This document shows positions 8,382-28,335 of a DNA stretch of 35,601 bases, one piece after another. This DNA is from Firmicutes bacterium ADurb.Bin193 (GTDB lineage Bacteria; Bacillota; Clostridia; Monoglobales; Firm-18). Made by a program: the position numbers and the translations under genes. How positions within the stretch are numbered: position 1 is the first letter of the stretch; each line of letters starts with the position of its first letter. Under the pieces are notes generated by a model. The model saw only the letters and a program-made list of their open reading frames with translations, searched no databases and had not been told where the DNA came from. The DNA is taken from contig MWCQ01000022.1 of NCBI GenBank assembly GCA_002070105.1, positions 1-35,601 on the forward strand, in the 5' to 3' direction.

Positions 8382-8385
8382 AATA

Positions 8386-10372: not shown

Positions 10373-10375
10373 ACG

Positions 10376-10909: not shown

Positions 10910-11107
10910 GTCGCCATCACCTCCATCTCTCTCTTGATAATATATGCAAAAATATGCTTGTCTGATTACGATTTCAAGTTAAAACTCGCCGAAAGCCCTG
11001 TCATAGCGGATTTTGCGGCGACAAACCCCGCGCCCCAAATTTACTACAATTCCTCAGACGGCTTGAAAAAAGAGCGTAAAAAACAAGAAATCAAGATAAG
11101 ACAATAA

Positions 11108-11153
11108 ACAAGCCCCAAAAAGCCCAGCAATCATGCGGGTTTTGAAGGCTTGT
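11108..11153. repeat. Nested stem-loop, possible minus-strand terminator
   Basis: A perfect 7-bp outer stem (11108-11114 with 11147-11153) encloses a second stem (11119-11128 with 11135-11143, one bulged A). On the minus strand the inner stem is followed by five T, so it could end transcripts from the primase block before terS. The rest of 10910-11107 holds no credible gene. Confidence 0.45.
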
Positions 11154-11288
11154 ATCAATACCTTGATAAATAATCGACTTGAAATTGCGGAATATTACGC
11201 ATCCCCCATGGGCGTTGTACGAAGGCAAAAGCCGTAGAGATTGAGACCGCCCCTCCGGGGTATCCACACAATTTTTTTCATCAAAGCA

Positions 11289-11415
11289 GTAACCGGTAAC
11301 CCGGTAACTGTGTTTTTAGAGGGTCACTGTATTTACACACGCACACGCTCGCGTAGGAAGGTGACAACTCTTTCGCACGTACCTCTAAATTTTCGGTTAC
11401 CGGGTTACCGGTTAC
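11289..11415. repeat. Long inverted repeat with GGTAACC units
   Basis: Bases 11289-11310 pair with 11394-11415 over 22 bp with a single G-U pair. Each arm holds overlapping copies of the palindrome GGTAACC. The symmetry continues inward: TTTAGAGG (11315-11322) pairs with CCTCTAAA (11382-11389), and GTCAC (11323-11327) with GTGAC (11361-11365), leaving a loop of about 33 bases. The repeat sits directly after the primase-helicase stop. It could be an iteron-type replication origin, a regulatory hairpin or a long-stem terminator. An AT-rich stretch of about 30 bases follows at 11417-11447. Confidence 0.75.
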
Positions 11416-11444
11416 CTTATATATATTGTTTATATTGTTATATA

Positions 11445-12518
11445 TTAAGAGACATCGTCCTCCTCGTACTCAGCGAAACCGCCCACATCGCAGCGCCCGG
11501 AGAGCTTGCTGTAGTCCACCACCCACACCTTCCGGTTCTTGCCGCCGAACTTCTTTTGCCTGTTCTTGGCGACAAAAAACTCGCTATGCTCCAGTTGTTT
11601 CATAAACTGGTGATACGGCAGCACCTCGCCGACGATAGCACAGTCCTTGCGGTAACGGGTGTAGCGGTCATAAATAGCATAAATGTTAATGAAAAGGTAT
11701 TGATTGTTATTTTCAAAAACATAGTCCACACCATGTTTTAACCGCATCCGGGACATGACCTCAAAGGACTGCTCCACGATGGATTTGTTGTTTAACCCGC
11801 CGTCTAAAAGATATTCGCGGGCGGCATATTCGATATGCTTGGCACATTCCTCGTTATCGTACGGGAACGCATCCACCCAGCCTGTTCCAAGTGTCCTGCA
11901 CAGCTTGCCCAGCAAACAGATTCCGGCATACAAACAACATAGGTTGTCATGCACACGAGTCGGCAGCCCACTGTTAAAATGCTCCTTGCCTTCGTCAAAC
12001 CACTTTTCAACCTCCGCAACTGTTGTATCAAGGGCAGTGTCCAGTAGACTTCGCCCCAGTAAGTTTAGTAACCTTTTGTTCGCCGTAAGACTTTCAAAGT
12101 TAGCTTTACATTCAGGGTTGTTAATGTCACGTTTTGAAAATAGCAGTTCCACGGCTCGCTCCCGGATGGATGCTTCGTCAGCAGATTCCTCTCCCGATAC
12201 CGCAATCGGTGCCAGCAAATCATATGTCACCGTTGATTGATCGGCGCGACCGCGAATGCCCTCATGACAGTCGTAGCTGTCACGAAAATGGTTATATAGC
12301 GCGTTCAACCGCACTTTATCCAGCTTTGACGGTTTGAATTCATCGAAGGCTTGGGGGAATATATTAGAGGAACAGGACTCCTTCATCAACGTAAACGCCG
12401 TTATTTGGCTGCTGGCAGTTACCTTTGAACGCGAGAATATTGGTAATACTACCTTTTCCAACGTGTTGGACTTGCCGCTCCCGGATTCGCCAATTAGAAA
12501 TAAGTGAGGAAACTTCAC
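11445..12518 (-). CDS. ATPase half of the split phage primase-helicase
   Basis: These 357 codons carry Walker A GESGSGKSNT (residues 10-19) and a RecA/AAA-like body with two Cys/aromatic-rich helical segments, ending in a basic winged-helix-like region (about 290-345). They lie in exactly the same frame as the upstream primase half. The 15 codons between (12519-12563) are open and encode WIAACFIKPHLRRSEV, so a single TGA at 12564-12566 is all that separates them. The ORF start at 12518 has no ribosome site and the Walker region is too close to the N-terminus for a complete protein. I therefore read this as the C-terminal part of an 851-residue primase-polymerase/helicase, expressed only if the TGA is read through or translation restarts. 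Confidence 0.75.
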   Translation of the reverse strand: MKFPHLFLIGESGSGKSNTLEKVVLPIFSRSKVTASSQITAFTLMKESCSSNIFPQAFDEFKPSKLDKVRLNALYNHFRDSYDCHEGIRGRADQSTVTYDLLAPIAVSGEESADEASIRERAVELLFSKRDINNPECKANFESLTANKRLLNLLGRSLLDTALDTTVAEVEKWFDEGKEHFNSGLPTRVHDNLCCLYAGICLLGKLCRTLGTGWVDAFPYDNEECAKHIEYAAREYLLDGGLNNKSIVEQSFEVMSRMRLKHGVDYVFENNNQYLFINIYAIYDRYTRYRKDCAIVGEVLPYHQFMKQLEHSEFFVAKNRQKKFGGKNRKVWVVDYSKLSGRCDVGGFAEYEEDDVS

Positions 12519-12563
12519 TTCACTGCGGCGCAGATGCGGTTTAATAAAGCACGCCGCTATCCA

Positions 12564-14000
12564 TCAAAGAATGGGCACCGTCTTAGCTGGTTCGTTGTAC
12601 GACATAATGTGCTTAGCGACCAGAAGTAACCCGGCTTTATCGATAAGAGGAGCCGAAAGAATTTTGCTCTCAAGGCTTTTATATTTTTCCATCTGCACCA
12701 TGTCTTTCACAATCGTGCCGCCTGCGCTCACCGCGCCATTGGTATCCACGAACACCAACTTCTTTTTGCGTGGATAGATACCCAATGCCTTCACGCCTCG
12801 CTTTTTCAGCCATTTCAACTTGTATATATGCATTTTAAACATTTCCAAATCGCCTTCGCTACCAAGAAAAGAAAGGGCTATGGTCTTTTTGTTGAGAACA
12901 CCTTTAAATTTCTGAACGGTGGTCATATCGCTTGCCGTCAGGTTTTGTCGGAATCGCTCGCCGCTGTCGGTGACCAAATCGCATGTCAACTGCGCCTCAT
13001 CCTCAGCGGTTATCATTTCAATGGGATCGACAATAAAGTTGGTGATTTGATAAAACTTGTCGCCTCGCCGACGATAATAACAGCCATACTGCTCGAATAT
13101 TTCAGGCTCTTTGGCTTGCTGTGGTGGTGTGTAAACTTGGGTGGTATTGGCGCAAGCGTTCTTGACAGTCTGCTCTCCGTAAGTCGTGCCATCGGCAGAG
13201 TGCCGGGCATCCCATTTGTCGCGATATAGCCCTGATTTGCGAAATAGGCGGTCAATCTGAACATCACTGCGCCCCGACCAAAACGCAAGCTTGCAACATA
13301 GCGCAAAATCAGCCTCCGATTGGGATTTATATTTGCCCTGCCATTCGCCTGAATAAAGCTTACCGAATGCCTCACCGTCTTTGGAGGCGTGCGCCAACTT
13401 CAACAATTCAGCATCCGTTAATACCGCTATCATTGACTTGGAAACCGCGCGGCTACTACGTTTTAGAGGTGTGATAAACGTCTTATGTATCCAATCAATC
13501 GCTCCGTTATCATCAGCAATTGTATCCGCACAGTCCTTCCAACGCATTCCGGTCATAGTAAAATATCTGCTTGACGAGTACATCTCCACACCATATTTGC
13601 TGTTGCGGTTTCCACTGGATGGCAACTTGCCTTTGAGGAAGATGTGCAGCCCAGTTCCCGATGGACTAATTTCAATGTACGTTGGCGGCAACCTCGACAA
13701 AATATCCGTTGCTACCTCGTTTGGATGACCGTCGGTAAGGCAGTGGTCAATGTCTATTCCGACAATACCGCAATCTTCTGTAAAAACAAAGCCAATCCCA
13801 CTGAACGAATATTTATCTTCAGCATCTATAGCTTCATCTAAGGTACCCCACGTTGACGGATTACTTGCCGACGCCCTATATCCCGTCCCCGGTGAATACG
13901 GCACCTTTGTATCTTTTCCGGACTTTTTATCAGGCTCTAACCGCCAACATACCCATTGTTTTAGGGCAGTCAATTCTTTTGGGAATGTATTCTTGTCCAA
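12564..14000 (-). CDS. Phage primase-polymerase, N-terminal half, ends at an in-frame TGA
   Basis: The 478-residue half is a primase-polymerase like that of phage NrS-1. Metal-binding IDIDH lies at about 82-86 and SPSGTGLHIFLKG at about 112-124, the two hallmarks of AEP-type prim-pol catalytic sites. A helix-bundle domain (about 215-285, FALCCKLAFWSGR then LFRKSGLYRDKW) follows. The region after 300 links to the ATPase. Start is TTG 14000, six bases after GGGGTGA. The frame ends in VPIL followed by TGA, yet remains open for the ATPase beyond; a Gly codon (GGA) is the likely ancestral state. The protein primes and extends phage DNA; separated from its helicase, replication would probably fail. 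Confidence 0.85.
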   Translation of the reverse strand: MDKNTFPKELTALKQWVCWRLEPDKKSGKDTKVPYSPGTGYRASASNPSTWGTLDEAIDAEDKYSFSGIGFVFTEDCGIVGIDIDHCLTDGHPNEVATDILSRLPPTYIEISPSGTGLHIFLKGKLPSSGNRNSKYGVEMYSSSRYFTMTGMRWKDCADTIADDNGAIDWIHKTFITPLKRSSRAVSKSMIAVLTDAELLKLAHASKDGEAFGKLYSGEWQGKYKSQSEADFALCCKLAFWSGRSDVQIDRLFRKSGLYRDKWDARHSADGTTYGEQTVKNACANTTQVYTPPQQAKEPEIFEQYGCYYRRRGDKFYQITNFIVDPIEMITAEDEAQLTCDLVTDSGERFRQNLTASDMTTVQKFKGVLNKKTIALSFLGSEGDLEMFKMHIYKLKWLKKRGVKALGIYPRKKKLVFVDTNGAVSAGGTIVKDMVQMEKYKSLESKILSAPLIDKAGLLLVAKHIMSYNEPAKTVPIL

Positions 14001-14139: not shown

Positions 14140-14168
14140 TTGAATTATTTGACAATATATGATATAAT
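14140..14168 (+). promoter_or_regulatory. Promoter of the defence operon
   Basis: TTGAAT (14140-14145) and TATAAT (14163-14168) are 17 bp apart. A second -35-like TTGACA at 14149-14154 could pair with the weaker TATACG at 14171-14176 (16 bp). An ATTAAC/GTTAAT dyad at 14083-14103 in the same divergent region is a possible operator. The helicase start is 43 bases downstream. Confidence 0.65.
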
Positions 14169-14210: not shown

Positions 14211-16844
14211 GTGAATACCTTGCTGGAAAGCCCGTTCCACATTATGTACAAAGCAAAGAAGTTGTCGTCCTATGCCTTTGGGCACGACAAGTTGATTCCG
14301 GCATTTGCATCTTCAAATATAGCGGTGTATCCATACCAGGTAGCGGCGGCAATGTTCGCCCTTCGCTCGCCATTTCAGAGAGGTGTCATTGAATGCTCGG
14401 AGGGCGGACTCGGAAAATCCTATGTTTCGCTTTTAATTATACTCCAGCAATGGTACATTGGAAAACGCAGATTTCTTTTGGTTATACCCGCACACTTACG
14501 TCATCAATGGCGGTCAGCATTGGATGAGAAAATCAGCATCCCCGCCGTTTTTTTGGATAATAATGCTGATATAAAAGAATACGAGGATGGTAATCCTTTC
14601 GAGCAGGACGCGCTGGTTATAACAACTTACGAACTGGCGGCGCAAAACTCCGAGCGCATATCACAAATCAAATGGGATATTGTGATGTTTGATGAAGCTC
14701 ATCGACTTTGCAAGTCTCACATCGTGGACGCGAAAGAGGCGCGGACGCTGAAAGCCGCCGTGGACGAGGCATTCAAAATATTATTGACCGCCACGCCAAT
14801 ACAGCTAAACATCATGGATTTATATGGACTGATCCATTTTATAGACGAAACCGCTCTGCCGGATGCAGGTGATTTTTATAAACGCTACTTCCGCAAGCCG
14901 GAAAACTATCCGGAACTGACGGAACGCGTGAGCGGATATTGTTTTCGCACATTGCGATCGCAAGCGAAACAATATGCCGGAATCACTAATCGGCTAAATA
15001 TAACGGTCGAATTTGACTATACCACCAAAGAAAAAGAACTCTATACGCTGATTGAAAAATACCTAAAACGCCCAACGAAAGCGGCGTTTCCTAAAATGGA
15101 ACGATATGACCTCGCGCTTATGCTGTACAGTACCTTTTCTTCCTCCGCAGAGGCGTTGGCGCAGACTTTAGACGGTGTGGTTAAACGGTTGGAAAAAGAG
15201 CCGGATGCTACAGCGGAATTGAACGAAGTTAAGCAAATGCTTGAAATTACACATGGTATCGCCACTACTGCCAAATACAAGGCACTTATTAAAAGTCTTG
15301 ATATTTGTTTCCGCGAATTAAAGAGGCGCGGCGCGAATAAAAAGGCGTTGATTTTTACCGCCAGCCGTGCTACACAAAAATTTTTAAAAGAATTGCTTGT
15401 CAAAAAGTGGACTGTTGCTACATATAGCGGAGATAACAGCGGTGACGATATAATCGCAAAATTCCGTGACGAGGCTGAAATCCTCATTACCACCGACCTT
15501 GCTTCGGACGGCTTGAACTTTGAATTTTGCTCGTTAGTGGTAAATTATGATATAGCGTATAACACATTGAAATTAGAACAGCGCATCGACCGCTGTCATA
15601 GATTGCGCCAGCAGAACGACGTAATCGTCCTCTCGCTCATCAACCGTAACAATTTTGCGGATGTTCGAATGCTGGAGTTGGTGGGCAAGCGTACCCTATT
15701 AATGGACGGCGTGTTTGGCTTGACGGACGATGTTATCGGCGGCTTTATCAGTGACATTGAGACAGAACTTCCCACCGCCTTTGAAAAGGCGCGGACAAAG
15801 CAGGAAGTTGCTGTGGCGTTCGCGGACACGCTTACAACTAACGAGGGTAAAAATAGAGAGGCTGTGAAATCTGCCGAAGAGATGCTGTTCACTACCTTTA
15901 GCGGCGCGCTGGCAGATAATATTCATATCACGCCACAATATATTGAGAGCAAAACAAAAGAAATTAATGAAGATTTATGGTGCGTGGTGCGCTGGTTTTT
16001 CGGACGCCATCGCGATTTTATGATAGATGATGAAAACCGTTCCATTCGAACATTCCACAATCCTGCACCTCATGTGTTTACCGGAACACGGATGGGACGT
16101 GATGAATATAGTATGCTGGACAAAACCCTTCCGAAATCCGGATGGATTACCATAACAAGCAACATCGCGCAAAATGTACTTCAGGAGATATTTTGGCAAG
16201 GTCTGGAGAGTGAAGGCAGTATTATAGTTGATGGTAATGTATCAAATTGTACGATTGGATTTTACGAAGTGACCGTGTCTAACGGATATTTTGGCGGCGC
16301 GGTTTACAGGACATTCACCGGGCAGACACAAAAGGGCAAGAGTCTCTCCGACCGAGAATGCCGCAAGATTATGGAAATGCCTGTACTTAGCTTTTCCGCA
16401 CACGACAACCGAATCGGGCGCAAGGACGGCATGAAATTTGACGAGTATAAATATCACGAACTGGATGATTTAATTGATACCGCCGCCTATACATCCCGCT
16501 GTGCCGAGAATACTGATCCGGCTATTGCGGAAGAAATATCTAAGCTGAAACATCAAACTGAGGACAAGAAAATCGCTCTTAACCGTGATTTGGAAGGCTT
16601 AAAAGCGCAGCTCACCGCGCCGCAGAATGTGGATAGCATTGCAGAAAAGCTACTTGCTGAAAAACGCAGAAGCGTACTGGATCGGGAGTATAAGCAAAAA
16701 GAACAGAGCCTGTTTATGGATGGCTTGAAGCTGGATGTGGAGCTGGAAGAGCAAATCAAGAAATTAGCGGACGGCGCGAAATTGACCGCGAAAGTGCGGA
16801 GGCTGTTTTTGATAAATGTGGAGGGAGGGCAAGAGAATGGGTAG
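14211..16844 (+). CDS. SNF2/DEAD-box helicase of the defence operon
   Basis: An 877-residue superfamily 2 helicase with SNF2-like character. Walker A EGGLGKS is at 64-70, DEAH at 161-164, TATP at 193-196, motif V LASDGLNFE at about 430-438 and motif VI QRIDRCHRLRQ at about 457-467, all intact. Residues 540-800 are an unassigned C-terminal region; 775-870 is highly charged and probably coiled-coil. Such enzymes translocate on double-stranded DNA and remodel bound proteins, as in DISARM DrmD and RapA. The start is GTG 14211 with AGGA seven bases upstream. Its end overlaps the next gene by eight bases. I recall similar helicases upstream of type III Mod genes in other genomes, with a small protein between, so a role in that system is likely. 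Confidence 0.88.
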   Translation: MNTLLESPFHIMYKAKKLSSYAFGHDKLIPAFASSNIAVYPYQVAAAMFALRSPFQRGVIECSEGGLGKSYVSLLIILQQWYIGKRRFLLVIPAHLRHQWRSALDEKISIPAVFLDNNADIKEYEDGNPFEQDALVITTYELAAQNSERISQIKWDIVMFDEAHRLCKSHIVDAKEARTLKAAVDEAFKILLTATPIQLNIMDLYGLIHFIDETALPDAGDFYKRYFRKPENYPELTERVSGYCFRTLRSQAKQYAGITNRLNITVEFDYTTKEKELYTLIEKYLKRPTKAAFPKMERYDLALMLYSTFSSSAEALAQTLDGVVKRLEKEPDATAELNEVKQMLEITHGIATTAKYKALIKSLDICFRELKRRGANKKALIFTASRATQKFLKELLVKKWTVATYSGDNSGDDIIAKFRDEAEILITTDLASDGLNFEFCSLVVNYDIAYNTLKLEQRIDRCHRLRQQNDVIVLSLINRNNFADVRMLELVGKRTLLMDGVFGLTDDVIGGFISDIETELPTAFEKARTKQEVAVAFADTLTTNEGKNREAVKSAEEMLFTTFSGALADNIHITPQYIESKTKEINEDLWCVVRWFFGRHRDFMIDDENRSIRTFHNPAPHVFTGTRMGRDEYSMLDKTLPKSGWITITSNIAQNVLQEIFWQGLESEGSIIVDGNVSNCTIGFYEVTVSNGYFGGAVYRTFTGQTQKGKSLSDRECRKIMEMPVLSFSAHDNRIGRKDGMKFDEYKYHELDDLIDTAAYTSRCAENTDPAIAEEISKLKHQTEDKKIALNRDLEGLKAQLTAPQNVDSIAEKLLAEKRRSVLDREYKQKEQSLFMDGLKLDVELEEQIKKLADGAKLTAKVRRLFLINVEGGQENG

Positions 16845-17535
16845 GCTCACCGAAACCGTTAGTATTATAACCACTTTGGGAGTGTTGGGAACTTTGGTTC
16901 TTGGATTTATGAACTGGTCATCCTTGAAAAAGAGCGGACGCCAATCTCGTGAGCATAGTTTAAAGATGGCTGACTATGAAAAAATAAGGGATTTTCTTTT
17001 AATACAAATATCCGAATATATTTCCTTGCTTGATGCGCACAAACTTTCCTATATGGCTTTGTCGGACAAAGAGTATAAAGGGAAGGATATGGAAACATAC
17101 AGCCATTATTTTAAACTTGAAACTTGTTTTTATAGAATCAAGCTGTTTCTCAATTCTGATAATTCGTATTTTAATGAACTTTCATCCATTTTGGATATGT
17201 CTTTGAAAACAGCAAGAAAATTACAAAGTGCTAATTCATTTGCAGAAATGCTTTCACACGGATTACGCCACCCTAAAGAATATGCAGCTGCTTACAGCCG
17301 CGCCTTAAATGAGTTAGAACGTTCCGAAAAAACAGAATCACATACCATAGTTATTGATAATGATGCAGACAAGGAAAACACTCTGAAATTTGTTGAGGAA
17401 GTTGTGAAAATGCGGGATGAACATTTAAAAAAATATCTCTCAGCGACAGAGGAATCTTTAAAACACAAAAAAATGATTGTTGATATTGCCCGCAAGTATT
17501 TGACTTGCGAAAAGAAACAAGTCACAGGAGGATGA
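16837..17535 (+). CDS. Membrane-anchored coiled-coil protein
   Basis: This 232-residue protein is unknown to me. Residues 7-28 (IITTLGVLGTLVLGFMNW) form a single N-terminal membrane helix. The remainder is almost wholly helical and charged, with likely coiled-coil at 30-60 and 140-215, facing the cytoplasm if the Lys/Arg-rich segment after the helix follows the positive-inside rule. ATG 16837 is preferred because GAGGGAGGG lies six bases upstream; the open frame at 16816 begins inside the helicase. It overlaps the helicase gene by eight bases and ends five bases before the Mod start. Its conserved place inside the operon suggests a sensor or membrane effector, which is inference. DUF4391-type proteins often occupy this slot, but I see no DUF4391 motif. 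Confidence 0.75.
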   Translation: MGRLTETVSIITTLGVLGTLVLGFMNWSSLKKSGRQSREHSLKMADYEKIRDFLLIQISEYISLLDAHKLSYMALSDKEYKGKDMETYSHYFKLETCFYRIKLFLNSDNSYFNELSSILDMSLKTARKLQSANSFAEMLSHGLRHPKEYAAAYSRALNELERSEKTESHTIVIDNDADKENTLKFVEEVVKMRDEHLKKYLSATEESLKHKKMIVDIARKYLTCEKKQVTGG

Positions 17536-17540
17536 GAACA

Positions 17541-19409
17541 ATGACTGATAAAATGGATGGGTACAGCATGGATATAGAATTGGATGCGCGTGAAAAGTTA
17601 CGCGCTATATTCCCGGAGTGCTTTGTGGAAGGCAAGTTGGATTTGGTTAAGCTGGAGTCTCTTTGCGGCGAATTTCCAACTATTGACGAAAACGACCGGG
17701 AACGGTACGAATTTCGCTGGAAGGGCAAAACGGATGCGCTTAAATTGGCGCAACAGCGGTCATTGGGGTGCTTACGTCCGGCGAAGAGTGAAAGCGTGGA
17801 ATGGGACACCACAAAGAACGTCTATATAGAGGGCGATAACCTTGAGGTGTTGAAACTCCTGCAACGGTCTTATTTTCGCAAGGTTAAAATGATATATATT
17901 GATCCGCCCTATAATACTGGGAATGACTTTGTTTATGAGGATGATTTTTCAGATAATATTGGAAATTATAAAAAGATTACATCACAAGGCACAACCTCAA
18001 ATCCCGAAACAGCCGGACGTTATCACACCAACTGGTTGAATATGATGTACCCTCGTCTTCGGTTGGCAAAAAATCTTCTCCGTGATGATGGTGTTATATT
18101 TATTAGTATTGATGATAATGAGGTTCATAATTTACGCAAGCTTTGTGATGAGGTGTTTGGGGAAGAAAATTTTATTAGTGAGTTGATATGGCAACGCGCT
18201 TTTTCGCCGAAAAATGATGCACGCTACATATCCAACAGCCATGATTATGTTTTAATGTATGCAAGAAGTCTTACCGAGTTTACAATCGGAAGGTTAGAAA
18301 GAACCGAAGAGGCAAACGCAAGATATTCCAATCCCGACAATGATCCACGTGGCGTTTGGATGTCAAGTGATATTTCCGTAAAGACATATAATGCGGAGTA
18401 CGATTATCCAATAACTTTGCCATCGGGTAGAATTGTCGAGCCTCCAAGTGGACGATGTTGGAGGCAACCTAAAGAAGCATTTTTACAAAATGTTGCAGAT
18501 AACAGAATTTGGTTCGGTCCGGATGGCGATGGTACACCACGAATCAAGCGTTTTTTATCAGATTTAAAATTTGATGGAATGGCTCCAACATCAATTATGT
18601 TACACAAAGATGTCGGGCATAGTCAAGAAGGGTCGCAAGAGGTTACAAAGTTACTAAATGCTGGAGTTTTCGACGGACCGAAACCCGTACGATTATTACG
18701 CCGATTGCTAACACTTGCCAATACATCCGAAAACGATATTATCCTCGACTTCTTTTCCGGTTCTGCTACCACTGCCCATGCAGTTATGCAACTGAACGCT
18801 GAAGATGGCGGTAACCGCCGTTTTATTATGGTTCAGTTGCCGGAGTTATTGGATGAAAAATCCGAAGCATATAAGTCAGGATATCGTACTATTTGTGATA
18901 TCGGCAAGACACGCATTTTCAAAGCTGGAATAAAAATCAAATCCGAACAGGACGGTCAAATCAAACTGGGCGAGGAGGAAAAACTGCCACTGGACATTGG
19001 GTATCGCGTGTTTAAACTTGATACTTCAAACCTCAAAGTTTGGGATAATACTCCAACCAGCGATGAAGAAGAGGCGTTCCAGCGCATGATGAATATGTTG
19101 GATGTTTTGAAACCCGACCGTTCCGAAGAGGACGTTGTTTACGAAGTTCTGCTAAAATTAGGACAGGAACTCACCGAGGATGTAGTCCCACTGGATATAA
19201 ACGGCAAAGTAGGCGTGTATGCTATTCATAAAGACGTTTTGTTTATTGTTTGCCTTGCCCGTGGCGTTACTGCCGAAGATGCCGAAAAAATGGCAGAATA
19301 TATGCCGGGACGGATTATCTTTGCCGATGAGTGTTTCAGCAATAGCGTGGGAAAAGCGAATGTCTATCATACGCTGAAAAATCATGGAATTACGATAAAG
19401 GTATTATGA
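17541..19409 (+). CDS. Type III restriction-modification methyltransferase (Mod)
   Basis: The 622-residue protein is a site-specific adenine methyltransferase of the beta class. Motif IV DPPYNTGND is at 121-129 and the SAM-binding DFFSGSATTAHA at about 402-413, the standard Mod order. The segment of about 170-390 between them contains the target-recognition domain. NVYIEGDNLEVLKLL (about 93-107) is the familiar lead-in of type III and type II DNA adenine methylases. ATG 17541 lies 10 bases after AGGAGG; the frame upstream of it overlaps the previous gene and lacks a site. Mod both protects host DNA and recruits Res. It ends 49 bases before the metallopeptidase gene. It appears complete. Confidence 0.93.
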   Translation: MTDKMDGYSMDIELDAREKLRAIFPECFVEGKLDLVKLESLCGEFPTIDENDRERYEFRWKGKTDALKLAQQRSLGCLRPAKSESVEWDTTKNVYIEGDNLEVLKLLQRSYFRKVKMIYIDPPYNTGNDFVYEDDFSDNIGNYKKITSQGTTSNPETAGRYHTNWLNMMYPRLRLAKNLLRDDGVIFISIDDNEVHNLRKLCDEVFGEENFISELIWQRAFSPKNDARYISNSHDYVLMYARSLTEFTIGRLERTEEANARYSNPDNDPRGVWMSSDISVKTYNAEYDYPITLPSGRIVEPPSGRCWRQPKEAFLQNVADNRIWFGPDGDGTPRIKRFLSDLKFDGMAPTSIMLHKDVGHSQEGSQEVTKLLNAGVFDGPKPVRLLRRLLTLANTSENDIILDFFSGSATTAHAVMQLNAEDGGNRRFIMVQLPELLDEKSEAYKSGYRTICDIGKTRIFKAGIKIKSEQDGQIKLGEEEKLPLDIGYRVFKLDTSNLKVWDNTPTSDEEEAFQRMMNMLDVLKPDRSEEDVVYEVLLKLGQELTEDVVPLDINGKVGVYAIHKDVLFIVCLARGVTAEDAEKMAEYMPGRIIFADECFSNSVGKANVYHTLKNHGITIKVL

Positions 19410-19458
19410 AATATAAAAACCGTTCAAGAATACTATATATAGAGAGGTGGCGATAGGC

Positions 19459-20628
19459 ATGGCAGAATCGATAACTCATATTAATCCGAAAATGTTCATT
19501 TGGGCGCGTGAAGTGAGCGGAACAACTGAAATAGAGGCTATTGATAAATTTGGGAAAGAAAAGCTATATGGCTGGGAAAATGGTACGGTTTTCCCAACGT
19601 ATGCAGAGCTTAAGGTTATTGGAAAGTACTATAGAAAACCCATAGCTGTGTTCTTTTTTCCAGAGCCACCAAATATGAAAGATATTCCAGCATCATGTCG
19701 CACATTCCCAATTGAAGAACGTGGGGTTTTTGACCGTTCCTTAACTAAAATGGTGGATTGGGCGCGTTCGATGCAAATAAACTTATTTGAGTTAAATGGT
19801 GGAGTAAATAACGTAACCAGAAAAATTACTGATATTACATTCGATACATCTGACTTATCTTCGGTTGCAAAACAATTAAGGACATTAATGAACATTGATA
19901 TTTCAAAACAAAAAAGTTTTCGTACCAGAGATGAGGCATTTGAACAGTGGCGCCATTGCTTTTTCGAATTAGGAGTATATGTATTTAAAAACTCATTCTC
20001 AGGAAACGATGTTTCAGGTTTTTGTATTTACGATAAGGAATTTCCTGTAATATGTATAAACAATGGGTTGGCACACTCAAGGCAAATATTTACATTGTTT
20101 CATGAAATGTATCATCTTATTTGTGCAACCAGCGGTGTTGACTTATTGGATGACGATACTCTTATAAGTCAAGTTGACCGCTTTGATATATCTGTTGAAT
20201 TGGCGTGCAACAAATTCGCAGGAACTTTTCTCGTCCCAGATGACGATTTTGCAAAGGTTTCCAGAGGTAAGGCGTTTAATGATACAGCTATCCAAAGATG
20301 GGCAGATTTGTATTCCGTAAGCCGCGATGTCATTTTGTATAAGCTATATGAAAAAGACCGGATTACTTTTGACACTTTGATCGAAAAAAGAAGAGAGTAT
20401 ACAGAAGATTATTTTAGAAAATTTCAAGTTGATGAGTCGGGTAAGAAAAAAGGAGGAGGGAATTACTACAGTACACAAGCCGCTTATAAAGGACGGCAAT
20501 ATTTGGAATTGGCATATAGACGTTACTATGAGAAAAAGATTTCTCTTCCGCAACTGTCACAGTATCTCAATATGAAAGTTCATAATGTTAAAGAATTAGC
20601 ATCTCAGAAAGGATGGGGTGCCGTATGA
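19459..20628 (+). CDS. XRE-family regulator with ImmA/IrrE metallopeptidase domain
   Basis: The 389-residue protein starts with a helix-turn-helix-like region (about 10-60, IEAIDKFGKEKLYGWENGTVFPTY region) and continues into an ImmA/IrrE zinc peptidase domain with HEMYH at 215-219, then ELACNKFAGTFLVP, which supplies the third ligand region. Proteins of this kind cleave or relieve a repressor, as ImmA does in ICEBs1, or act as antitoxins fused to XRE domains. The C-terminal 60 residues (from about 330) are basic. Start is ATG 19459 after GAGAGGTGG; the open frame from GTG 19447 would consume the site. It overlaps the DUF4411 gene by four bases (ATGA), the pattern of a linked antitoxin-toxin pair. 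Confidence 0.88.
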   Translation: MAESITHINPKMFIWAREVSGTTEIEAIDKFGKEKLYGWENGTVFPTYAELKVIGKYYRKPIAVFFFPEPPNMKDIPASCRTFPIEERGVFDRSLTKMVDWARSMQINLFELNGGVNNVTRKITDITFDTSDLSSVAKQLRTLMNIDISKQKSFRTRDEAFEQWRHCFFELGVYVFKNSFSGNDVSGFCIYDKEFPVICINNGLAHSRQIFTLFHEMYHLICATSGVDLLDDDTLISQVDRFDISVELACNKFAGTFLVPDDDFAKVSRGKAFNDTAIQRWADLYSVSRDVILYKLYEKDRITFDTLIEKRREYTEDYFRKFQVDESGKKKGGGNYYSTQAAYKGRQYLELAYRRYYEKKISLPQLSQYLNMKVHNVKELASQKGWGAV

Positions 20629-21191
20629 TTTATGTTGTTGATACTAATGTGTTTTCGCGTTCGCTGAATAACTTGAGTCTGGATGTTTTTGGTGAGGACA
20701 TATATGTGCCCTGGTCTGATGGGATGAATAACGGACAGATAATTTCGGTTGATGAGGTATATAATGAATTAGATAATCATTGGGGAGCGAGTGTGGCGAA
20801 GAACAAAAGAACAAAAGAAGGCGCATGGCTTCATGACCATAAATCTGCTTTTAAGAATCTTACTAATGAAGAATGCAAGATTGTTGCTGATATATTCAAA
20901 AGCAAGAAATTTCGAGAGGGTGTTAAAGAAAAGAGTTTGCGTAATGGCACTCCCGAAGCTGACGCGTTTTTAGTTGCAAAAGCAAAAATTGTCAGTGGAA
21001 TTATTGTAACAGATGAAAGTAATACGAAACCAAACGCTGAGAAAATTCCCAATATATGCGTTGCTTTTGAAGTGCCATATATTACAAAAGACGATTTTTA
21101 TCGCGTATTAAAAAACATTTCAAAGGGACAAGCTGAATTAGATAGTGTAACTGTTTATCGTAAATTAAAGTGCAAGGAGAATACAGCATGA
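20625..21191 (+). CDS. DUF4411 family protein (PIN-like)
   Basis: This 188-residue protein opens with MIYVVDTNVFSRSL, the first acidic residue (Asp6) and Asn of a PIN-type nuclease. GTPEADAFLVAKA (about 113-125) and GIIVTDES (about 131-138) supply further acidic positions. DUF4411 proteins are predicted PIN-domain nucleases, and I recall them repeatedly paired with XRE-ImmA proteins, which suggests a toxin-antitoxin function. ATG 20625 overlaps the preceding stop (ATGA), and its own end overlaps the Res start the same way. Translation of peptidase, PIN protein and Res therefore looks coupled. The substrate, presumably RNA, is unknown. Confidence 0.85.
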   Translation: MIYVVDTNVFSRSLNNLSLDVFGEDIYVPWSDGMNNGQIISVDEVYNELDNHWGASVAKNKRTKEGAWLHDHKSAFKNLTNEECKIVADIFKSKKFREGVKEKSLRNGTPEADAFLVAKAKIVSGIIVTDESNTKPNAEKIPNICVAFEVPYITKDDFYRVLKNISKGQAELDSVTVYRKLKCKENTA

Positions 21192-24100
21192 AACTCCAAT
21201 TTAAAATACAACAATATCAAACCGATGCGGTGAACGCTGTGGTGGACTTATTCAAAGGGCAGGAAAAGCAAAGTACCACATTTACTTTAGCGCAGGATGA
21301 TACGCAAATGACAATGCTTGAAAACGAACTCGGCGTGGGCAACTCACTGCTTATTTCGGATGATGTCATGCTCCAAAACATGCGTGATATCCAACATCGG
21401 AATCGCCTCGAAATGTCGGATGATTTACATAACCGCCAATTCGGTGTGGACATGGAAACCGGAACAGGAAAATCCTATGTTTTTACAAAAACCATCTTTG
21501 AACTGAATAAACAATATGGATTTACTAAGTTTATTATTGTTGTTCCAAGCGTGGCAATCCGCGAGGGCATATATAAATCATTCCAAATTACAGCAGACCA
21601 TTTTGCGGAGCAATACGATAATGTGCCGTGCCACTATTTTATTTACGATCCCAAAAAGCTGAACCAAGTGAAGGATTTTGCCGCTAACACCGACATTGAG
21701 ATCATGATTATAAATATAGACGCATTCCGCAAATCCGAAAATATAATTAACCAAGAGCATGACAGACTGAACGGAATCCCAGCAATGCGATATATTCAAG
21801 ATACCAACCCTATTGTCATCATTGACGAACCGCAGTCTGTGGATTCCACCGATAAGGCGAAGTCCGCAATTGCCAGTTTGAACCCGCTTTGTGTCTTCCG
21901 TTACAGTGCGACTCATAAAGAAAAAATCAACATAATGTATAGATTAACGCCTGTAGATGCGTATCAAATGGGATTGGTAAAACAAATCAGCGTTTCCAGT
22001 AATTCGGTGGTTGGTGACTTCAACAAACCTTATGTACGGCTTATTTCAGTCAGCCACGAAAATGGTTTCTCAGCACGTATAGAGATTGATAAAGCGCATA
22101 AAAGCGGCAAAGTGGAGCGCAAACCCGTCACCGTTAAAAACAACTCTGAACTGTTTATGCTCTCCGGCGAACGTGATCTATATGAAGGTTACACTATCGC
22201 CGGGATCGAATGTGCCTCTGGACGGGAGTATATAGAATTTACCAACGGTGATCGTTTACCGCTGGGTAAAAGCATGGGCGATATAGACGAAAACGTCCTC
22301 AAACGCGCTCAAATCCGCCGAACCATTGAAACCCATCTCGACAAAGAAATAATGTTCTTGGAAAAGGGCATAAAGGTGTTGTCCTTGTTCTTTATAGATG
22401 AAGTTGCCAAATACCGCACTGTTGAAGGTGAGAAGGGCATATACGCCGAGATGTTCGAGGAATGCTATGCCGAACTCATCGCCATGCCGCGCTATGCGCC
22501 CATCCGTGAGCGTTTCTCGGATAACTGTCACAATGGATATTTTTCGCAAGACCGCAAGGGTAATTTGAAAAATACAAGGGGTGACACTTTGGACGATTAC
22601 GATACTTATAACACAATCATGAAAGATAAAGAATGGCTGTTATCGTTTGATTGTCCCTTGCGTTTTATCTTCTCGCATTCTGCGCTGAAGGAAGGCTGGG
22701 ATAACCCAAACGTGTTCCAAGTCTGCACACTAATAGAACAAAAATCAAATTTTACTTGCCGACAAAAAATCGGGCGCGGTTTGCGCTTGTGTGTGAATCA
22801 AAACGGCGAGCGTATTGATGATAGAGAAATTAACACACTCCATGTTATGGCAAACGAGAGTTTTGCTGAGTTTGCCGACACGCTCCAAAAGGAAATCGAG
22901 CAGGAAACAGGCATGAAGTTTGGCGTTTTAGATATTGGACTTTTTGCAGATCTGACCATACCGGAAACGAAAGTTGTGGAGGCTACAGTTACCGAAACCC
23001 AAGCGGCACAAGTGGTTGAGGCATTAAAATCCGTAGGCGCGATTGACAAAAGTGGCGCGGTTGTTGATACCCTCAAGCCAGAGGAAATAAAACTTCCGGA
23101 GGAATTGGAACCTGTCAAGGAGGCGGTCATCGCTGTTGCAAAAAAAGCTGAAACCGTCAGCGCGGCATCCCTTGCCAATGTATCCGTGGCTCAAACTGTA
23201 GCGGTGGAACGCGAAGCCACACAGGAGGAAAAGAAAGAACTAATACAACATTTTGTGGAACAGGGTTATGCCGACAAGAAAACTCACAAGAAAAAAGATA
23301 CGCTGAAAAATGCGCTGGAATCCGGAACGCTGAATCTGCCGGAACGATACGAGGCGGCGCGGGAACGCGTGGAAAATATACTCAAGAAAGACGAACCGCG
23401 TGTCCCGGTTCGCGATGCCTCACGCGATGTTGTCGTGAGGCTTAATAAACAAGTTGTTATATCGCCTGAATTCCAAGCATTGTGGGATAAGATTAAATAT
23501 AAGACTCGATATTGTGTGGATTTTGACGAGAATGAACTCATTCGTAAATCCGCAGACGAACTGCGCCGTCTTCCTGCTATTCCGAAGGCGCGAGTTGTTA
23601 CCACCACTGCTGAAATTGATGTAAAACGCTCCGGCATTGGATATACCGAAACCTCCACGCGCACAATTGATATTGAGGATGTGCAGAATAAACTGCCCGA
23701 CTTCCTGCGTATGACAGATGAGGAGTGCTTTATTTCACGCAAGGCATACATCCAAATTTTGCGTGAGAGCGGTCGGATGCGCGACTTTTTGAATAATCCG
23801 CAGAAATTTATGGAGCTATTTATAGAAACAGTAAAAACCGTTCTGCATGATATGGAAATTGAGGGTATTCGCTATACAAAGCTGGAGGGTGAGGAATATT
23901 ACTTCCTTGAGGTTTTTGATAACGAGGAGCTTCCCGCCAATCTTGACGTGAACGCCGTGGCGGTCAAAAATAGTGCATATGATTATATCATTTACGACAG
24001 CACCAGCGTGGAACGCCCATTTGCCGTTGCGCTGGACAACGATCCGGATGTAAAAATGTTCTTTAAGATACCTAAAAAGTTTAAAATTGAAACGCCAATC

Positions 24101-24316
24101 GGCACATACAATCCCGATTGGGCGGTTTATATGGATAAAGATGGAGTCGAGAAATTATACTTTGTCATTGAAACTAAAGGCACAACGAAACGGCACGAAC
24201 TCCGAACGCCGGAACAACAAAAAATTCATTGCGGCGAACGCCACTTTGAGGCTATTTCCGATGGCGCAGAATTTAGAGAGGCGAAAAGCTGGAGGGAGTT
24301 TAAGATTGGAGTGTGA
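21188..24316 (+). CDS. Type III restriction enzyme, Res subunit
   Basis: The 1042-residue protein is a DEAD-type helicase-nuclease. Walker A METGTGKSYV is at 89-98, motif II IIDEPQS at about 211-217, and motif VI QKIGRGLRL at about 525-533. The C-terminal nuclease site is NPDWAVY near 976-982 with VIETKGT near 993-999, together giving PD...ExK. Res binds Mod, moves or diffuses along DNA after recognising unmodified sites, and cuts beside them. AAGGAG lies seven bases before ATG 21188. All motifs are present, so an active system is expected. A charged Ala/Glu/Val-rich stretch at about 600-720 links helicase and nuclease parts. Confidence 0.94.
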   Translation: MKLQFKIQQYQTDAVNAVVDLFKGQEKQSTTFTLAQDDTQMTMLENELGVGNSLLISDDVMLQNMRDIQHRNRLEMSDDLHNRQFGVDMETGTGKSYVFTKTIFELNKQYGFTKFIIVVPSVAIREGIYKSFQITADHFAEQYDNVPCHYFIYDPKKLNQVKDFAANTDIEIMIINIDAFRKSENIINQEHDRLNGIPAMRYIQDTNPIVIIDEPQSVDSTDKAKSAIASLNPLCVFRYSATHKEKINIMYRLTPVDAYQMGLVKQISVSSNSVVGDFNKPYVRLISVSHENGFSARIEIDKAHKSGKVERKPVTVKNNSELFMLSGERDLYEGYTIAGIECASGREYIEFTNGDRLPLGKSMGDIDENVLKRAQIRRTIETHLDKEIMFLEKGIKVLSLFFIDEVAKYRTVEGEKGIYAEMFEECYAELIAMPRYAPIRERFSDNCHNGYFSQDRKGNLKNTRGDTLDDYDTYNTIMKDKEWLLSFDCPLRFIFSHSALKEGWDNPNVFQVCTLIEQKSNFTCRQKIGRGLRLCVNQNGERIDDREINTLHVMANESFAEFADTLQKEIEQETGMKFGVLDIGLFADLTIPETKVVEATVTETQAAQVVEALKSVGAIDKSGAVVDTLKPEEIKLPEELEPVKEAVIAVAKKAETVSAASLANVSVAQTVAVEREATQEEKKELIQHFVEQGYADKKTHKKKDTLKNALESGTLNLPERYEAARERVENILKKDEPRVPVRDASRDVVVRLNKQVVISPEFQALWDKIKYKTRYCVDFDENELIRKSADELRRLPAIPKARVVTTTAEIDVKRSGIGYTETSTRTIDIEDVQNKLPDFLRMTDEECFISRKAYIQILRESGRMRDFLNNPQKFMELFIETVKTVLHDMEIEGIRYTKLEGEEYYFLEVFDNEELPANLDVNAVAVKNSAYDYIIYDSTSVERPFAVALDNDPDVKMFFKIPKKFKIETPIGTYNPDWAVYMDKDGVEKLYFVIETKGTTKRHELRTPEQQKIHCGERHFEAISDGAEFREAKSWREFKIGV

Positions 24317-24348: not shown

Positions 24349-24373
24349 GAGTGTATGAGGGGTGAACACAGCA

Positions 24374-25504
24374 ATGGGAGAATTCGCGCATGGAATACAT
24401 GTTTACAAGAAAAATAAGGATCAGATTCTGCAGGCTATCCTTGAGATTTTTCAAGGAAGTAATTACGTTCCTTGTGAAAGCGACGACGTTGACCGCGCTG
24501 TCGCCATTATTGACTCAGGTCAGTGGGTGAGTGTTTTTGACTCTGATATTTACGACAATTCATTTAACAAGGCTCTGTCGCTTCAAACCGACGCCCATAG
24601 CGTCGCGTTTGATTTGCTGGACGGCGATTGCCTTCAAGCGGTTCTTTGGAAAAACGGACGGCGAGTGAACGTCCACATTTCCGAACCTGAATACATTGAG
24701 CTTCGGCGCACCAAGTCAAACTGCGGCAACGCTCAAAGGTGGAACGCGGTTACAAAGGATATTAACACGATGCAATCCGTATTTGAAAGCGACGATGACG
24801 CAACCTCTAAATTGTTCGAGCTATCGAAGGTTTTGGAGATTCCATATCAACTTACACAAATGCAGTATGACTATTTGGAAGAAATTGATGGTGTGGATAT
24901 TGCATATTTATATTTTCGAGATATAAGAAGTAAGCCGCCTATACCTGAAACACCGGTATTCAGATGGGACGGAGGCGTTTGTCCTGTGCCGTTGAATCGC
25001 GAAGTGGAATCAGTACAATTGAAAAAAGGGATGCCTCCAAAAAACATTCTCCATATTGGCGAAATATTTGTGACAGTTACCGATTTTGTGAATGTGGGCA
25101 TGGACGGCAAGGGTGTAACGGTATATTTTATTGGAAAGAGTATGGAAAGTGAAAGTGTTGTCTTTGAGCGGGTTCAGATATTTGATTGTATTGCGTTCGA
25201 AGGCAATAAACTTGTAGCCGAAGCTGAGTTTGAGAAAATAACCTTTCAGGATGATCGGAAAGGTTATTACGCAAAATTAGATGGGGTTGAAATTTTCCAC
25301 AGCATAACCTTTTCTGACTACTGCATAGCAAGCAGGACTAACAAGTCGAAGGAAAAGAAGTATCATCCATTCAGCATAAAAGTTTTCGGTAAGGCTCTAA
25401 ACATGGCGAACGAATATGAGGCAGCTCTGTTTGTTCACCCGAACGAGAACTATACCGAAGGGTATTTTTATAGAGAAATACTCGGTGATGTTGTGTTTAG
25501 GTGA
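24374..25504 (+). CDS. Unknown protein after res
   Basis: This 376-residue protein is not recognised. It is acidic and soluble, with mixed strands and helices. An N-terminal region (about 1-115) ends at RVNVHISEPEY, and a C-terminal beta-rich region (about 215-370) follows. I see no catalytic motif, membrane segment or nucleic-acid motif. ATG 24374 is chosen over GTG 24362 because GAGGGG falls immediately next to the GTG but at normal distance from the ATG. It lies 57 bases after res and 31 bases before the UPF0158-HD gene with no terminator on either side, so it probably belongs to the same transcript. It could be an accessory or cargo protein. Confidence 0.65.
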   Translation: MGEFAHGIHVYKKNKDQILQAILEIFQGSNYVPCESDDVDRAVAIIDSGQWVSVFDSDIYDNSFNKALSLQTDAHSVAFDLLDGDCLQAVLWKNGRRVNVHISEPEYIELRRTKSNCGNAQRWNAVTKDINTMQSVFESDDDATSKLFELSKVLEIPYQLTQMQYDYLEEIDGVDIAYLYFRDIRSKPPIPETPVFRWDGGVCPVPLNREVESVQLKKGMPPKNILHIGEIFVTVTDFVNVGMDGKGVTVYFIGKSMESESVVFERVQIFDCIAFEGNKLVAEAEFEKITFQDDRKGYYAKLDGVEIFHSITFSDYCIASRTNKSKEKKYHPFSIKVFGKALNMANEYEAALFVHPNENYTEGYFYREILGDVVFR

Positions 25505-25535
25505 TAAGCTGATTCATAGATTGTGAGGGATGAAA

Positions 25536-26609
25536 ATGAATAAATTCGTATATTTAGAAGATGTTGCTGAAGAAATGCAGATGACAAACGATGAAAGTTC
25601 CATCTATTACAACACCGAAACAGGAGAATTTGTGTATTACAGCGAATACTATTCCGATGACGATATTGACCCCGTGGAATTCGAAGAGGACAAATACATA
25701 TCCCTGCCATCTCAGCACGACATAGGGGAATATGATATGATGGAGCACTTTGCTGATAATGTACGCGACAACCGAAAGCGTGAACTGCTTTTGGTTGCGT
25801 TGGAAGGAAAGGGTGCGTTTCGCCGGTTTAAAGATACGCTGGATCGTGTGGACTTGCGAGAAGAATGGTATCATCACAGGGATAAAGCGTATATTGAGGT
25901 TGCGCGGGAATGGTGCGTAAAAAACGAGATTTCCTACAAAATGAAAAAAGAAAGCGAGTGCAGAACCGGAATAACGGCAGATGCTCAGCGAAAACAGACT
26001 GCGGTACACGAATCTGGAAACTGTATGTTAAGCAAAGCTATTGAAATTGCTTCCAAGGCACATGCCGGACAAGTAGATAAAGGCGGCAGTCCTTATATAT
26101 TGCATCCAATTCGTGTAATGATGAATTGCGAAAGTGAGTCAGCGAAAATTTGCGCTATTCTGCATGATGTGATCGAAGATACAAACATTACGTTTGATGA
26201 TTTGAGAAAAGACGGATTTACCGATGAAATTATAACAGCCCTTGAGTGTCTGACAAAGCTGGACAGCGAGCACTATGATGATTTTATCAGTCGTGTTATA
26301 ACGAATGAGATTGCTTGCCTTGTTAAGCTTGCAGACCTTGCTGACAATATGGATCTGACGCGAATACAAAATCCAAGCGCCAAAGACGAAGGACGCATCA
26401 AAAAATATGGTCAAGCCGCTGACCGTATTTCAAAGGCGTTGCCATATGCCGATGAAATCCCCGATTGCCGCTTGACAGAAATAAGCGGAGTTGTGGAAAC
26501 TTATTCTAATATCTCAAGTGATCAGTTTTGTGATATGTTCATTCGTTTTATAGAGTCACATGGTTGGTTCTTTGGCGGTGGATTTAAAGATATTACTGAT
26601 GAAAACTAA
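25536..26609 (+). CDS. UPF0158 domain fused to SpoT-like HD hydrolase
   Basis: The 357-residue protein has three parts. Residues 1-140 match the UPF0158 family (acidic start, then ALEGKGAFRRFKDTL and WYHHRDKAYIEVAREW). Residues 160-285 are an HD domain of the SpoT/MESH1 type: AHAGQVDKGGSPYILHP, the HD pair in AILHDVIEDT at about 210-211, and LADLADNMD. Enzymes of this type hydrolyse (p)ppGpp or related nucleotides. The last 40 residues contain SHGWFFGGGF, reminiscent of the YggL/DUF469 family. GAGGG precedes ATG 25536; ATG 25530 is the alternative. No synthetase domain is present, so it is hydrolase-only. The substrate is inferred, not shown. Confidence 0.8.
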   Translation: MNKFVYLEDVAEEMQMTNDESSIYYNTETGEFVYYSEYYSDDDIDPVEFEEDKYISLPSQHDIGEYDMMEHFADNVRDNRKRELLLVALEGKGAFRRFKDTLDRVDLREEWYHHRDKAYIEVAREWCVKNEISYKMKKESECRTGITADAQRKQTAVHESGNCMLSKAIEIASKAHAGQVDKGGSPYILHPIRVMMNCESESAKICAILHDVIEDTNITFDDLRKDGFTDEIITALECLTKLDSEHYDDFISRVITNEIACLVKLADLADNMDLTRIQNPSAKDEGRIKKYGQAADRISKALPYADEIPDCRLTEISGVVETYSNISSDQFCDMFIRFIESHGWFFGGGFKDITDEN

Positions 26610-27074: not shown

Positions 27075-27140
27075 ATGTGCTTTGGTATGCAAAAAGCAGG
27101 AGTAAGACGGGAGATGAGCAGCGATGCCGAGGAAACTTAA
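27075..27140 (+). CDS. Possible 21-residue leader peptide
   Basis: ATG 27075 lies five bases after GGAAGGAGG and opens a 21-codon frame that overlaps the recombinase start by 17 bases. The ribosome site is better than that of the recombinase itself, so this could couple translation. The region from 26935 to here shows nothing else. Confidence 0.35.
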   Translation: MCFGMQKAGVRREMSSDAEET

Positions 27141-28335
27141 CGCCAAGCTGATTGAGGCAAAACGGGCGAAACGAAAAGCGGAAAGTGTTGTTGCGGTGAC
27201 AGAAATTTTCAATGTGCATGAAACTGTGGCGTTAGAAACTACACCAAAACGTCCGCGGGAAATTATGCCGGAACCGCCACCCGTGACTGTGGGTGCGGCA
27301 ATTCAAAAACTCCGCGCCGCCGCCTATGCACGGGTTTCGACCGCCGAGGAACAACAGTTGGGAAGCTACGAGGCGCAAGTTCAGTATTTCACCGATGCAA
27401 TCAACAACAATCCCGAGTATGAATTAGTAAAAGTTTATGGAGACCACGGTGTTAGCGGCACTCTGCTCAAACAGCGCAAGGGATTCCAAGAGATGATGGA
27501 AGCTGCCCTGCGAGGCGAGATTGACATTATTTTAGTCAAGAGCATTTCGCGATTCGGGCGCAATTCGGCGGATATTTTAAACAATTTGCAAATATTGCGA
27601 ACCCTGAATCCGCCTGTGACCGTGTGCTTCGAGGGCGAACATCTGCTAACTTCGGACAGCCGAAATGATTTGCTGATTTCAATCCTTGCCGCCATCGCCC
27701 AACTGGAGTCGCAGCAGAAAAGCGAGGCGATCAAATTTGGCATTCGTTTCCGTATGTCGCAGGGGACATTCAAATTTTCAGTGAAATACACCCTTGGTTA
27801 TTACCGTGACCACTTTGGGAATATCAAGGTGGATCAAGCCGAAGCGGAGATTGTCCGGTACATCTATGAGAGTTATTTAGAAGGCGCGACCATCGCCGAA
27901 ATTGCGGGATCGCTTACAGAAATGGAGATTTGTACTCCCAAAGGGCATATGAAATGGAGTAACAGCACTATTCGCAGCATTTTGTCAAACGAAAAGTACA
28001 ATGGCACCGTGCTTTTTCAAAAGACCCGAACGGAAGACTACCGCACCCATAAGTCCGTCAAAAATCGGCTGATTTCCATGTGGGAGGTAGAGAATCACCA
28101 CACACCTATTATCCCGATGGCAGAGTGGCAAAAGGTTCAGGCTGAACTTTTGGTACGGAAGGATAGCCGCAAAAAGGGCGGCGGTATTGGGATTATGAAA
28201 AAATTCACTGCCCCGCGCATCAAAAGCGGTCATCTCAAGGGATACTACCTGCTCGACGGCAACTGGACTCGCCAAGAACGGGAAACGGTTTTACAAATTA
28301 TTGAGTCCATAAATAATTTAGATGAGGAAGGATGA
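27124..28335 (+). CDS. Large serine recombinase 1
   Basis: The 403-residue protein is a serine site-specific recombinase. After a 60-residue Lys/Pro-rich extension comes the resolvase domain, with AAAYARVS at 65-72 and Ser72 as the predicted nucleophile, and ISRFGRNSADIL and AQLESQQKSEAI further on. A recombinase domain (about 215-330, YTLGYYRD to SNEKYNGT) follows. It ends without the zinc-ribbon Cys pairs or long coiled coil that the second recombinase has, so it is the short type found in tandem recombinase modules. ATG 27124 follows GGGAG at 10 bases. It is followed five bases later by a small unknown gene and then by recombinase 2, an arrangement seen in many Firmicute elements. Confidence 0.9.
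   Translation: MPRKLNAKLIEAKRAKRKAESVVAVTEIFNVHETVALETTPKRPREIMPEPPPVTVGAAIQKLRAAAYARVSTAEEQQLGSYEAQVQYFTDAINNNPEYELVKVYGDHGVSGTLLKQRKGFQEMMEAALRGEIDIILVKSISRFGRNSADILNNLQILRTLNPPVTVCFEGEHLLTSDSRNDLLISILAAIAQLESQQKSEAIKFGIRFRMSQGTFKFSVKYTLGYYRDHFGNIKVDQAEAEIVRYIYESYLEGATIAEIAGSLTEMEICTPKGHMKWSNSTIRSILSNEKYNGTVLFQKTRTEDYRTHKSVKNRLISMWEVENHHTPIIPMAEWQKVQAELLVRKDSRKKGGGIGIMKKFTAPRIKSGHLKGYYLLDGNWTRQERETVLQIIESINNLDEEG

Follow-up and report, generated by a model that had tools for sequence, protein, structure and literature searches.

A complete toxin-antitoxin pair, very probably of the VapBC52 type to judge by its homology, lies between the methyltransferase (mod) and helicase-endonuclease (res) genes of a type III restriction-modification (R-M) operon in the window, the whole stretch of 35,601 nucleotides that was analysed. 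We propose that it may form an embedded abortive-infection back-up for type III restriction, a VapBC52-type module triggered by DNA damage, and we assign this reading a probability of about 0.52; the claim that the pair backs up type III restriction is, taken by itself, about as likely as not. The reading is based on end-to-end homology, intact catalytic residues, gene order and recurrent placement beside type III genes. The initial annotation had placed a peptidase-PIN pair between the two subunits of one restriction system, and this arrangement was borne out: with type III mod upstream and res downstream, the plus strand encodes an XRE/M78 protein of 389 aa (HEMYH motif) and a DUF4411 protein of 188 aa (Asp6) (Table 1).

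Table 1. Features of the type III operon and of its nested gene pair in the window.
Feature	Position	Strand	Evidence
Sigma70-like promoter TTGAAT-17-TATAAT (predicted), ahead of the operon	14140-14168	+	consensus scan
SNF2-family helicase, DrmD-like; first gene of the inferred operon	14211-16844	+	PF00176, 87.7 bits
~233-aa protein with hydrophobic N-terminal stretch; overlaps the SNF2 gene	16837-17535	+	
Mod, type III N6-adenine methyltransferase	17541-19409	+	PF01555, 125 bits; PADLOC MTase_III, 705 bits
mod/ImmA gap, 49 nt; palindrome CTATATATAG and AGAGAGG ribosome-binding site	19410-19458	+	
XRE-ImmA antitoxin (probable), 389 aa, XRE/Peptidase_M78	19459-20628	+	PF06114, 59.7 bits
ATGA overlap, ImmA stop / DUF4411 start	20625-20628	+	
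DUF4411 PIN nuclease toxin (predicted), 188 aa	20625-21191	+	PF14367, 70.6 bits (cut-off 23.5)
ATGA overlap, DUF4411 stop / Res start	21188-21191	+	
Res, type III helicase-endonuclease	21188-24316	+	PF04851; PF19778, 126 bits; PADLOC REase_III, 1009 bits
380-aa protein, same strand as Res; possible operon member	24362-25504	+	

The pair belongs to a closely packed plus-strand run consisting of SNF2, the ~233-aa protein, Mod, XRE-ImmA, DUF4411, Res and two more genes, and ending at position 26609. Both enzymes identify the system as type III, Mod being homologous to EcoP15I Mod (4zcf_A; 2e-59) and carrying the DPPY and DFFSGSATT motifs, and Res, with a helicase and a C-terminal endonuclease, matching EcoP15I Res (4zcf_C; 4e-62). 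The SNF2 helicase scored 344 bits with PADLOC DrmD and fell below the NCBIfam DrmD cut-off, and the position of the ~233-aa protein is held by DUF4391 in relatives. As in the window, several Bacillota type III loci (L162, L163, L165, L172 and L176) have, immediately upstream of mod-res, a DrmD-like SNF2 gene together with a gene for a ~220-250-aa protein, which is DUF4391 in L162 and L172; the two genes and mod-res possibly make up an extended type III system. At the other end of the run, the 380-aa protein gave no match in a Pfam search, and the last protein (25530-26609) joins a UPF0158 N-terminus to a RelA/SpoT-like HD domain (TIGR00691, 62 bits, under the cut-off) and is a possible (p)ppGpp hydrolase. 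The surroundings include phage-like genes on the minus strand (7119-14000), among them a ParB_N plus N6_N4 methylase gene (7119-8381), TerL (8386-10047) and an NrS-1-type primase (12564-14000), and, on the opposite side of the locus, two large serine recombinases (27124-28335 and 29305-30933). The same genome holds a second type III system (L158, contig C13, 9000-26000; Res 62-63% identical), where the order is SNF2, DUF4238, prokaryotic Argonaute, SIR2 (PADLOC Aga_SIR2), Mod, a 188-aa PIN-like protein (PF01850, 20 bits, under the cut-off) and Res; the interval from SNF2 to mod thus accommodates an entire Argonaute-SIR2 system.

The assignment of the two proteins as toxin and ImmA antitoxin, also part of the initial annotation, is strengthened by a proven homologue, VapBC52 of M. 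tuberculosis (Rv2514c-Rv2515c; PDB 9vzy/9vzz), in which VapC52 cuts tRNA and arrests growth, VapB52 neutralises it by binding the toxin 1:2, single-stranded DNA (ssDNA) leads to self-cleavage of VapB52 between its N-terminal and middle domains, and cells that overexpress VapC52 resist phage D29 (PMC13273310). DUF4411 gave a profile match of 4e-28 to VapC52 (9vzy_D), and its catalytic acids D6, E48, D113 and E131, the equivalents of VapC52 D6, E48, D99 and E117, are all intact, each being kept in 99-100 of 101 relatives. On the antitoxin side, residues 11-382 matched VapB52 (9vzy_A) at 1e-23 (phmmer), and the family profile matched the 9vzy antitoxin at 5e-74. This protein is built of an XRE domain (~1-66), a linker with the motif CRTF (80-83), an M78 peptidase and a C-terminal cap, and its zinc/peptidase site, made up of H215-E216-H219 within HEMYH and E247, is intact and invariant in its alignment. 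The AlphaFold models had mean pLDDT values of 89.3 (DUF4411) and 87.9 (XRE-ImmA, with residues 74-88 of the linker below 50); in a fold library extending to April 2026, where 9vzy was not among the returns, they matched other PIN and ImmA proteins, namely VapC4 for the PIN fold of DUF4411 (Z 13.1, rmsd 3.1, 136 aligned) and CapP, IrrE and PprI-ssDNA for XRE-ImmA (Foldseek). As in VapBC52, the large XRE-M78 antitoxin gene stands immediately upstream of the toxin gene on the same strand. A search of the DUF4411 protein in PADLOC and NCBIfam returned no match, so that the toxin would escape defence callers based on these collections.

The likeness to VapBC52 has its limits. Where VapB52 has its zinc-capping Cys, this protein carries Asp, as do 55 of 102 relatives; Cys occupies the column in 11 of 102, and the capping Cys is therefore not a family-wide feature; the FR cleavage motif of VapB52 is replaced here by CRT(F), in a linker predicted to be flexible, with R kept in 95 and F in 86 of the 102 relatives. 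With Asp for Cys and CR for FR, gating may differ from that of VapB52, and the antitoxin gate is likely akin to the VapB52 cysteine switch, yet not identical to it. Moreover, DUF4411 carries here a C-terminal extension of ~20 residues, and the pair sits within a type III operon, unlike VapBC52, which was described as a toxin-antitoxin locus and not inside an R-M operon.

The initial annotation had rested largely on four-base overlaps, through which Res translation was held to depend on that of the PIN-like protein. ATGA overlaps do occur at the ImmA/DUF4411 and DUF4411/Res junctions, but mod and the ImmA gene are separated by a 49-nt gap, in which a scan relying on consensus matches for both kinds of signal detected no sigma70-like promoter and no terminator. 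The proposed dependence was not supported, as Res is preceded by its own AAGGAG ~8 nt 5' of the ATG and both overlap junctions fold no better than shuffled sequences (z of -0.87 and -0.04). Nor was support found for the overlaps as the link to restriction: the ImmA/DUF4411 overlap is a family trait, the pairs being on the same strand in 106 of 106 cases, with a four-base overlap in 53 and a one-base overlap in 16, and the DUF4411-to-Res spacing, -4 nt here, is 0, 12 or 53 nt in relatives and ~0.5-1.5 kb where additional guests are present. Translational coupling was consequently dropped as the chief argument.

A link between the pair and restriction was supported, in that nesting beside type III genes recurs independently. 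We scanned one genome per species (84,980 species) with a context-blind query, the DUF4411 alignment, and obtained 80 loci; when others fetched are included, both genes are present in 106 of 114 loci. A type III mod or res adjoins the pair in 12 of the 80 loci (L036, L037, L055, L059, L060, L076, L080, L098, L100, L102, L106 and L108, Mod being assigned from its methylase domain in L080 and L102), and 68 of the 80 have the pair without an adjacent type III gene; in L039 mod lies two genes from the pair, and in L082 the pair lies 7 bp upstream of a type I hsdR. Type III genes occupied 16 of 245 positions within two genes of the pair as against 6 of 540 positions farther away in the same loci (6.2-fold enrichment; p = 6e-5). 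This estimate is conservative, since every one of the distant type III genes comes from a locus in which the R-M cluster extends to the pair as well. The nested order Mod-ImmA-DUF4411-Res was found in L055 (Neomarinimicrobiota), L059 (Dehalococcoidia), L060 (Deltaproteobacteria), L076 (Calditrichota) and L108 (Methanophagales). An archaeal locus of a third Res lineage (L234), reached with Res rather than the toxin as query, carries a 23S-IVP protein, ImmA and DUF4411, in this order, between Mod and Res, the DUF4411/Res spacing being 0 nt. In the nearest relative of the window (L036) the pair follows res, the DUF4411 frame is broken and RhuM stands between mod and res. Only two relatives were on viral contigs, neither adjoining R-M genes, and tblastn with the Mod and Res of the window found no type III gene in the ~1.5 kb flanks of Bacillota DUF4411 loci L006-L034.

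Eight of these loci (L055, L059, L060, L076, L098, L100, L106 and L108) share one Mod/Res family, with full-length Mod proteins 65-90% and Res proteins 68-87% identical, in hosts from Neomarinimicrobiota, Chloroflexota, Deltaproteobacteria, Calditrichota and methanogen-related archaea; such a host span at 65-90% Mod identity indicates that this second R-M family is transferred across the domains of life. Between L055 and L108 the identity is 81% for Mod and 78% for Res, and 51% for ImmA and 54% for DUF4411, and in the tree the pairs of this family are scattered among solitary ones. A single insertion followed by descent within the family was rejected, as the pairs forming one clade gave a p-AU of 5.2e-5 (AU test, 37-row tree). 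Type III loci thus appear to have acquired pairs repeatedly, in several events, and the lineage of the window is a further case. Most of the loci concerned are metagenome assemblies.

The chief rival of the back-up reading is that such pairs are passengers or addiction modules, mobile toxin-antitoxin cassettes that sit in a permissive gap and stabilise the locus, whose loss would kill or arrest daughter cells, with no mechanistic link to restriction; we consider this explanation somewhat unlikely. The pair is mostly solitary elsewhere, which speaks against the back-up reading since the module evidently does not need R-M. Its GC3 of 30-31% is lower than that of Mod (40%) and of Res (47%), which fits a recent insertion, and the phage genes and serine recombinases lie on either side of the locus; these features, together with the persistence of the pair after decay of mod in L100 and L106 and the use of the same slot by unrelated guests, are what a passenger would predict. 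On the other hand, independent recurrence in three Res lineages and before hsdR exceeds what is expected of random passengers, the mod/ImmA gap is promoterless by the scan, so that the pair seems to depend on the R-M transcript, and in the second R-M family the Mod/ImmA junction is a conserved ATGA overlap (-4 nt in seven loci: L055, L059, L076, L098, L100, L106 and L108).

The slot itself was surveyed in 34 type III loci reached via Res, where our count on this convenience sample gave 20 empty, 11 filled and 3 unclear mod-res gaps, and the ImmA-DUF4411 pair in one. Its guests comprise the different PIN-like protein of L158, RhuM, HepT/MNT, SIR2-HerA plus MNT, AAA plus Schlafen-like proteins, Bro-N, an IS200-like ORF, two unknowns and ImmA-DUF4411, and YhcG and HEPN are present in L076 and L108. 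RhuM proteins were seen in the gap of L036 (5050-6102; PADLOC PDC-S05), L060 (10969-12000), L167 and L176, and L222 (5662-8728) has a SIR2-HerA pair and a nucleotidyltransferase gene between mod and res. Within the R-M family of L108, the Res of L223 is 95% identical to that of L108, with MNT-HepT in place of ImmA-DUF4411, and the gap of L219 is empty. The picture is of a socket with exchange of guests, and it could be that the mod-res slot merely tolerates insertions.

Going by EcoP15I, a type III Res that lacks its Mod partner should be unable to cut. The initial annotation had proposed a built-in guard, with the pair acting once Mod, and so protection, is lost. We observed two archaeal loci in which mod is cut to an in-frame remnant of ~97 residues, that of L100 (3286-3582) keeping about the first 95 residues and that of L106 (834-1127) the first 42 and last 63. 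In both, the catalytic region of Mod is gone and the remnant runs into an intact ImmA-DUF4411 pair, which makes a trigger by Mod loss unlikely; the kept reading frame would fit a tie between antitoxin translation and the upstream frame. In L098, likewise, Res is reduced to 54 matching residues. A guard in which the R-M enzyme restrains the toxin has precedents in PrrC, silenced by type I EcoprrI and active when restriction is inhibited (PMC3506569), and in CreTA, which guards CRISPR-Cas; we regard it as very improbable here, as a dedicated antitoxin is encoded within the pair itself, unlike PrrC, intact pairs outlive most of Mod in L100 and L106, Res is largely gone in L098, and the DUF4411/Res coupling is not conserved. 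ssDNA or DNA damage is the better-supported candidate trigger.

An ImmA protein with an XRE domain might instead serve mainly to regulate the operon in the manner of type II C proteins, delaying Res until the genome has been protected by Mod and derepressing when cleaved upon damage. The XRE domain of the model does resemble the DNA-binding domain of ImmR (TM 0.80) and C.BclI (TM 0.67), the N-terminal domain of VapB52 resembles the R-M controller C.Csp231I (PMC13273310), and the palindrome CTATATATAG lies immediately 5' of the ImmA gene. This role nevertheless seems improbable: the gap has no detected promoter to control, the catalytic residues of the toxin, which a pure regulator would not need, are intact in essentially all relatives, and the XRE-like domain of VapB52 binds the toxin.

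Returning to the back-up reading, we infer that the pair would behave like VapBC52, with its trigger tied to the restriction reaction. In a healthy cell, the DUF4411 dimer would be bound by XRE-ImmA with its active site blocked, and placement in the operon would ensure that toxin and antitoxin are produced along with the restriction enzyme. Escape of a phage from restriction, or ssDNA left by restriction cuts and end-processing, would switch on the ImmA peptidase, which would cut its own linker at about residues 74-88 (motif CRTF), and the freed DUF4411 would cleave tRNA, stop translation and abort the infection. A stronger version, in which ends or ssDNA produced by Res on unmodified DNA directly trigger antitoxin self-cleavage and the pair is an integral, repeatedly acquired second stage, is in our view unlikely; if true, restriction itself would license tRNA cleavage and abortive infection, and bacteria and archaea alike would use the interval between mod and res as a general socket for stages of this kind.

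Several elements of this arrangement are already known, namely the pair (PMC13273310; PMC2701414), the presence of toxins within R-M operons, as for PrrC and for HEPN proteins (PMC3710099), and the hypothesis that immunity and suicide are coupled (PMC3506569). The XRE-COG2856 plus PIN class (Makarova 2009, PMC2701414) likewise has a fused XRE/Zn-peptidase gene and a PIN toxin gene in one operon; unlike the present locus, it was predicted to be free-standing and mobile, the part consulted describing no R-M nesting. As with PrrC in EcoprrI (type IC R-M), a toxin predicted to cut tRNA is embedded in an R-M operon as a putative back-up, but PrrC, of the ABC-HEPN type, is restrained by the Hsd complex and lacks an antitoxin gene, and the locus described here combines a PIN toxin and an antitoxin gene with a type III system; identity with PrrC-type anticodon nucleases was accordingly discarded, and PrrC is a functional analogue only. 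HEPN toxins linked to R-M operons are also embedded RNases, for which multi-pronged defence was proposed (PMC3710099), and the hypothesis that restriction is coupled to suicide dates from 2012 and drew mainly on PrrC, with the statement that typical antitoxins are not encoded by immunity loci (Makarova 2012, PMC3506569); the present locus does encode an antitoxin, and a peptidase is part of it. CapP/CapH and PprI(IrrE)/DdrO share an ImmA-type peptidase, for which ssDNA activation is expected; these cut a separate repressor of other genes, whereas VapB52 cuts itself and frees the toxin. In our literature searches we met no description of an ImmA-DUF4411 pair nested in a type III mod-res gap, of the recurrence of such nesting or of whole toxin-antitoxin pair exchange in that gap, which is weak evidence since subscription papers and preprints were mostly outside their reach.

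Overall, the repeated placement of the pair in unrelated bacteria and archaea suggests a two-step antiviral defence. A complete and structurally understood toxin-antitoxin system recurring inside type III R-M loci of bacteria and archaea makes the coupling idea directly testable, and the mod-res gap is a place to seek new toxins and defence genes.
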